Source: Mesostigma viride
Lineage: Eukaryota; Streptophyta; Mesostigmatophyceae; Mesostigmatales; Mesostigmataceae
Length of the DNA: 64,000 bases
NCBI GenBank assembly: GCA_009746045.1
Contig: RPFO01000156.1
Coordinates: forward strand, 5,749,900 to 5,813,899
Reading direction: 5' to 3'
The position numbers and the translations under genes are program-made. Positions within the stretch are counted from its first letter, which is position 1; every line of letters starts with the position of its first letter. The notes below the pieces were generated by a model that was not told the DNA's origin, ran no database searches, and was given only the letters and a program-made list of their open reading frames with translations. Shown one piece after another: positions 24,599 to 49,909 of this stretch.

Positions 24599-24796
24599 AT
24601 GGCGGATAGCGCTGCTACACTGTGTTCGTCGGCGCAAGAGGCCGTGGCTGTTCTTCTGCGGGGTACGGACTCTGCGAGGCGTCATGCGGCCAACGAGTGG
24701 ATCAACATGGTAGCGGCCTCCCCAACGGCTAGCTGGATGGTGGCCACCGAGCTTTGCAAGAGCCCTGATCAGGTCAGCCCTGCATGTTATCAAATC
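24599..24796 (+). CDS. Karyopherin exon 1
   Basis: The start codon at 24599 gives [20 protein letters not shown]. It encodes the first helices of the importin-N region (66 codons). The donor GTGCTGG at 24797 is weak, but it gives phase 0 and joins smoothly to [11 protein letters not shown] in exon 2. Confidence 0.65.

Positions 24797-49909: not shown

Follow-up and report, generated by a model that had tools for sequence, protein, structure and literature searches.

In vertebrates, repair-mediated duplications are closely linked, include splice sites among the duplicated sequences, and carry filler and microhomology at their breakpoints (Pace et al. 2009, PMC2671141). According to the available excerpts of that study, the copies lie within 5 kb of their source, and 4 of 824 source segments are partial exon/intron sequences. 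In Chlamydomonas and Volvox, introns have the highest repeat density, with more repeats near intron–exon junctions (PMC3887541). The accessible portion of that study counts repeats by position and suggests roles in splicing; it contains no statement on exon sequence and splice sites within repeat units, nor a comparison with a model of constraint. In potato, as far as the excerpted report goes, an intron was created by a duplication crossing an intron–exon boundary (PMC4974935), and a Drosophila study (PMC2891723) is cited beside this case. Small tandem duplications are described as arising via fill-in at break ends (PMC8355091, in part), and insertions in rice are attributed to patch-mediated break repair (Vaughn and Bennetzen 2014, as cited in the available text of PMC7407515). 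Among the titles and abstract openings covered by our literature search, we found no published description of exon-edge copies across the introns of a genome, and the accessible part of the Haematococcus genome paper (PMC7617258) describes nothing like them.

The locus presented here adds a dense example to a kind already known; splice-site duplications through repair and repeats at algal intron ends have both been published. It resembles the vertebrate duplications, as excerpted, in that local copies lie near their source and include splice sites, with copies at 17 of 100 junctions here and 4 of 824 source segments there, two figures whose denominators differ. Tandem repeats are dense in introns here too, as in Chlamydomonas and Volvox. 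Those algae show an excess at junction ends; here, donors are slightly high, acceptors are not, and dynein donors did not reproduce the donor peak seen in the other genes. The potato case is similar in that a boundary-crossing duplication brings splicing signals along. It differs in that no new intron appears to lie between the copies here; instead, existing introns of the 14-exon gene model seem to have been lengthened. By analogy, fill-in or patch-mediated break repair would be a plausible source of the local tandem and partly tandem copies described below.

In the window, a 64,000-nucleotide stretch of the Mesostigma viride genome, one gene spans 24599..49909 on the + strand. Its 14 exons, whose edges were placed by hand with splice motifs as a guide, have consistent splice phases and together form a stop-free frame of 1,294 codons:

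24599-24772, + strand, exon 1
26585-26785, + strand, exon 2
27602-27730, + strand, exon 3
29058-29230, + strand, exon 4
30135-30322, + strand, exon 5
31279-31643, + strand, exon 6
32888-32973, + strand, exon 7
33970-34415, + strand, exon 8
35855-36004, + strand, exon 9
37269-38488, + strand, exon 10
40597-40885, + strand, exon 11
42265-42410, + strand, exon 12
49127-49364, + strand, exon 13
49830-49909, + strand, exon 14

Twelve of the introns have GT-AG borders and intron 12, which starts at 42411, has GC-AG. Exon 10 has one match only in the genome (440 Mb, 2,243 contigs). The gene owes its karyopherin name to an earlier, sequence-only reading of this DNA; the family is putative and has weak database support. 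Pfam returned no karyopherin match for the predicted protein, and the IBN_N profile (PF03810) matched eight genomic places, none within the window. The first 684 residues had no match in the PDB at E 0.1, and raising the limit to E 10 brought up no importin. The first 198 residues weakly matched a proteasome subunit (E 0.3), Importin-4 (E 0.6) and Cadmus (E 1.5), the last of which we take to be an importin.

To score copies of exon edges, we used as a strict statistic a local alignment running through the junction with a score of at least 18. The following copies and arrays were found in the introns or across the junctions of the 14-exon gene:

26329..26378, + strand, copy of the exon 2 start and acceptor, 38/52 identical in local alignment (strict score of acceptor 2, 19)
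26463..26513, + strand, second copy of the exon 2 start, 37/52 identical in local alignment
27529..27604, + strand, 28-bp tandem array of 2.7 copies that ends across the exon 3 acceptor (score 14, under the strict bar)
28732..28783, + strand, copy of the exon 4 start, 308 bp upstream, 41/54 identical in local alignment, outside the strict count
29235..29437, + strand, 13-bp minisatellite from the exon 4 donor onward, a weak junction copy whose match has just 5 exon bases
30428..30485, + strand, partial copy of the exon 5 end that stops before the donor, 39/59 in local alignment
30549..30595, + strand, copy of the exon 5 end and donor, 35/49 identical (donor 5 score 13, under the strict bar)
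31713..31791, + strand, copy of the exon 6 end and donor in an 88-bp tandem, 63/79 identical
32634..32700, + strand, more diverged copy of the exon 7 start and acceptor, 51/70 identical in local alignment
32748..32910, + strand, 61-bp tandem array of 2.7 copies across the exon 7 acceptor, from the repeat table and local alignment
32936..33206, + strand, 81-bp tandem array of 3.3 copies that begins within exon 7 and crosses its donor
38551..38584, + strand, copy of the exon 10 end and donor, 29/38 identical (donor 10 score 23)
49393..49425, + strand, copy of the exon 13 end and donor, 55 bp downstream, 31/34 identical in its core
49443..49489, + strand, second copy of the exon 13 end and donor, 35/49 identical in local alignment

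The strict bar was passed by 6 of the 26 junctions of this gene, namely acceptors 2 and 7 and donors 6, 7, 10 and 13 (donors 4/13, acceptors 2/13). With a second statistic based on 30-mers, 11/26 junctions scored at least 10, against 11-12% of intron points outside arrays; the excluded arrays were hand-picked from the tandem repeat table, and with arrays counted the intron points rise to 51-52%. The sequence-only reading had listed ten duplicated junctions in this gene. Recognisable copies are present at nine of these, and the exon 4 end, where the minisatellite shares only 5 exon bases, is weak. The repeat periods given there agree with ours (28, 55, 61, 81, 88 and 92 bp, and 308 bp for exon 4, where a foreign insert lies between the copies).

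As a control for chance, donors or acceptors were compared with other introns among a set of 43, the 13 introns of this gene and 30 from other genes, covering about one third of all pairs. The bar of 18 was picked from this control in the same analysis, and at that score matches occurred in 0/602 donor and 1/602 acceptor comparisons. The copies are therefore local and real, and chance, already dismissed in the sequence-only reading, is rejected as their origin on this control. When the score is lowered to 14, copies are found at 16/57 donors and 5/43 acceptors, with 11 and 6 of 602 in the respective controls.

The copies had also been described as lying always on the intron side, and this holds beyond the one gene: across the same 43 introns, 15/86 intron sides and 0/86 exon sides pass the strict bar (Fisher P = 3e-5). 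Within the 14-exon gene, no exon-side copies (0/26) were found at a 30-mer score of 10. The intron-side placement is partly a matter of geometry, because the extra copy made by a tandem duplication across a donor falls within the intron whenever the first donor stays in use. Such one-sidedness is to be expected, since an intact message requires use of the first donor, and the extra copy is then intron by definition.

Junctions in other genes were predicted from family searches and comprised 30 introns of chaperonin and kinesin genes and 14 dynein donors. From the searches we took 42 of 58 chaperonin rows and 116 of 129 kinesin rows, which gave 62 exon pairs, 36 of them with DNA; of these, 34 were predicted and 2 were not. 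Three introns in L061, a duplicate contig, and one in L044, a second version of locus L043, were dropped, leaving the 30 introns, of which the kinesin sample makes up 10. For dynein there were 15 donor windows, one of them without a predicted donor, and the donors were placed from one side, without a partner exon.

Junction copies were found in all four gene groups sampled. Outside the 14-exon gene, the strict bar was passed by 9/44 donors (chaperonin 3/20, kinesin 4/10, dynein 2/14) and 2/30 acceptors. Several loci carry near-perfect donor copies, for example donor 1700 in L060 and donor 1632 in L055, and the dynein donors in L070 and L072 have clear exon-edge copies. The pattern had been thought special to one gene. 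Strict copies, however, occur at 6/26 junctions here and 11/74 elsewhere (Fisher P 0.37), and on this comparison a gene-specific process is rejected.

We then compared junctions with the interiors of the same 43 introns. Equally strong one-sided copies occur at interior points with a per-intron mean of 13.5 to 13.8%. The interior rates vary widely, with a median of 3 to 4%, a pooled value of 29% owing to large arrays, and a per-intron mean of about 13.5%. Measured against this mean, strict copies are found at 17/100 of all junctions (P 0.20), at 13/57 donors (one-sided P 0.04) and at 4/43 acceptors (9%, P 0.51). The sequence-only reading proposed that introns grow by local duplication at splice sites, and named equally many copies at random intron points as the observation that would speak against it; this is largely what the interiors show. 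Of that proposal, the duplication itself stands, being real, repeated and probably ongoing, but the targeting of splice sites is unsupported.

The small donor excess bears on the idea that duplication is aimed at or started by 5′ splice sites, for instance through transcription- or splicing-linked breaks at intron starts. In the first 43 introns, the 30-mer profile has a donor-centred peak that reaches 0.38 to 0.45 for scores of 12 and 10; from 60 bases inward, the profile lies between 0.10 and 0.29. In the 30 chaperonin and kinesin introns, 15/60 junctions, mostly donors, carry copies at a 30-mer score of 11, against 12.5% of interior points and 0/60 exon sides, and near-perfect donor copies are seen in L055, L056, L060 and L072. 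The peak had been identified in the very introns that display it. The dynein donors, however, were drawn to test it, with a prediction of about 40% fixed beforehand, and yielded 1/14 at a 30-mer score of 12 (2/14 by the strict measure). Acceptors show no excess in either the 30-mer profile or the strict count. Furthermore, an excess at junctions is already predicted by uniform duplication combined with constraint, as the simulation below illustrates. Given these results, we consider targeting of 5′ splice sites unlikely. It is similarly doubtful that 5′ splice sites are genuine duplication hot spots, with intron growth occurring mainly at the first bases and, in consequence, a second, intact-looking donor a little way into the intron in many genes.

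In the simulation, introns gained evenly spread tandem duplications and underwent short deletions, exons and splice sites were constrained, and wholly exonic duplications were rejected. Three settings of 320 introns each were scored at 18; sizes and rates were assumed, with the rates picked to bracket the interior level. The simulated rates were 0.138, 0.247 and 0.234 for donors, 0.147, 0.212 and 0.250 for acceptors, and about 0.11, 0.155 and 0.15 for interiors. At this score, junctions thus exceed interiors by a factor of 1.3 to 1.7, because in each junction pair one copy is slow to change. The donor rate observed, 0.23, fits the higher settings, and the acceptor rate observed, 0.09, fits the lowest alone; donors come out too low in the low-rate setting (P 0.055) and acceptors too high in a higher-rate one (P 0.06). 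Splice-site targeting is not needed to account for the junction copies, and a modest preference for donors is compatible with the data.

We therefore favor, with a probability of roughly three in four, the reading that small local duplications arise often and roughly evenly across introns, most likely through faulty repair of breaks, and that the junction copies are their visible edges. Duplications of about 25 to 100 bp, as a rule no more than about 300 bp from the sequence they copy, would arise throughout introns, with faulty repair of DNA breaks as the most likely source. Those internal to exons would be removed by selection, and those within introns would be tolerated. Duplications straddling a junction would also be tolerated, as the exon-proximal site would stay in use and the extra copy would land in the intron. 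Junction copies would then remain recognisable for longer, as coding and splicing constraint would hold one of the two copies. This reading builds on what is observed directly: the copies exist, they fall in introns only, they recur in other genes and are frequent in intron interiors, and one locus present in two versions differs in length between them. Several findings count against it. Donors somewhat exceed the interior rate (P 0.04), and the earlier 30-mer profile peaks at the donor. Acceptors, at 9%, fall short of the simulated 15 to 25%, the low-rate and a higher-rate setting each miss one of the observed rates, and interior rates vary widely. In addition, 17/23 copies were called spaced, an overcount, and clean tandem duplication would yield such spacing only with subsequent change or filler.

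If small duplications do arise in this way, a duplicated intron edge, one copy of which is held by the protein code, would make each such junction a datable fossil of duplication. In a genome with a sizeable minority of duplicated donors, one could measure directly how often small duplications arise and how large they are, how introns grow, and how far decoy splice sites are tolerated. The simulation also supplies a null model, under which repeats near intron ends need not imply a role in splicing.

The preservation of the copied sites could instead reflect selection, with the copies kept as spare or regulatory splice sites. The GT is kept in 13 of the 14 listed donor copies, and in 12/14 the donor score is near or above that of the functional site. 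Identity is 94% over the central 9 bases and 87 to 88% in the flanking exon sequence, a difference with P 0.035 when set against interior pairs, and the spacing between the functional donor and its copy is divisible by three in 1/14 (P 0.027, post hoc). However, at the strict threshold conservation of the central 9 bases does not exceed that in interior pairs (94.0 vs 94.3%), and the alignments were forced through the junction, which favors matches there. The tests were picked with the data already in view, and each mapped length derives from a single alignment. For exon 7, the first complete in-frame codon of the intron is a stop. Taken with these points, selection for spare sites appears very unlikely.

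Foreign or repeated DNA is present in introns of this type, including plastid DNA in intron 3 and about 3.1 kb in a chaperonin intron, so that splice-site sequence might have been brought in by introner-like elements or other mobile DNA. The insert in intron 3 is as follows:

28780..28993, + strand, plastid DNA in intron 3, between two copies of the exon 4 start, 97% identical to contigs C602, C842 and C438

The copies, however, match their own junction and not other sampled introns (0/602 and 1/602 comparisons). The same figures, from about one third of all pairs among the 43 introns, led us to reject dispersed introners. At exon 4, the duplication seems older than the plastid insert, because the insert is 97% identical to its source and the flanking copies match at just 41/54 positions; on this difference we also rejected the insert as the cause of the exon 4 duplication. 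An origin of the copies in mobile DNA is accordingly the least probable of the explanations weighed here, and we regard it as highly improbable.

The sequence of the plastid insert lies in inverted pairs on the plastid contigs C602, C842 and C438, and C602 contains two uninterrupted Photo_RC (PF00124) frames. A Pfam search with the frame read in the insert gave a weak Porin_6 match only.

The intron repeat content and the range of identities among the copies speak for the favored reading of recurrent small duplication. Tandem repeats occupy 49% of intron length in the 14-exon gene (24% without introns 10 and 12), against 6% in shuffled sequence, and 11% in the 30 other introns, against 0.2% when shuffled; in the exons of the 14-exon gene they occupy 0%. 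The identity of the copies spans about 65% to 100%. In 23 cases the copy is shifted from its source by 28 to 308 bp, within a search reach of just about 400 to 700 bp. Of these 23 copies, some of them under the strict bar, 17 were called spaced and 6 back to back. The rule overcounts spaced copies, because the exon 7 acceptor copy, which it called spaced, belongs to the 61-bp tandem array. The breakpoints are blurred by age and indels.

Two long arrays lie in introns of the same gene. In intron 5, a 26-bp array of about 17 copies (30774-31226) has an acceptor-like unit, a pyrimidine run followed by CTGACAG. Most of intron 12 consists of a 5.5-kb array (43563-49083) with about 350 copies of the 16-bp pyrimidine unit CCCCTTCTCCTCTCGC; the array lies a short way upstream of the acceptor of exon 13.

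Length changes can be followed in L043 and L044, one chaperonin locus present on two contigs, whose versions align in two blocks at about 97% and 93% identity. The aligned blocks contain 8 indels of at least 4 bp, and 4 of the 8 are copies of adjoining sequence, all from a single locus in two versions; the largest of these spans 43 bp and scores 41 of 43. Most of the size difference between the two versions does not stem from small duplication, because about 3.1 kb of extra DNA lies in one intron of the longer version. Within this extra DNA, matching repeats lie about 2.4 kb from each other.

Elsewhere in the window, positions 426-6147 and 10062-18310 each hold a set of long frames; the two sets are closely similar and, by eye, resemble a Gypsy-type LTR retrotransposon, with reverse transcriptase and integrase motifs. 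On the − strand, a frame at 50680-51438 looks, also by eye, like the end of a non-LTR reverse transcriptase.
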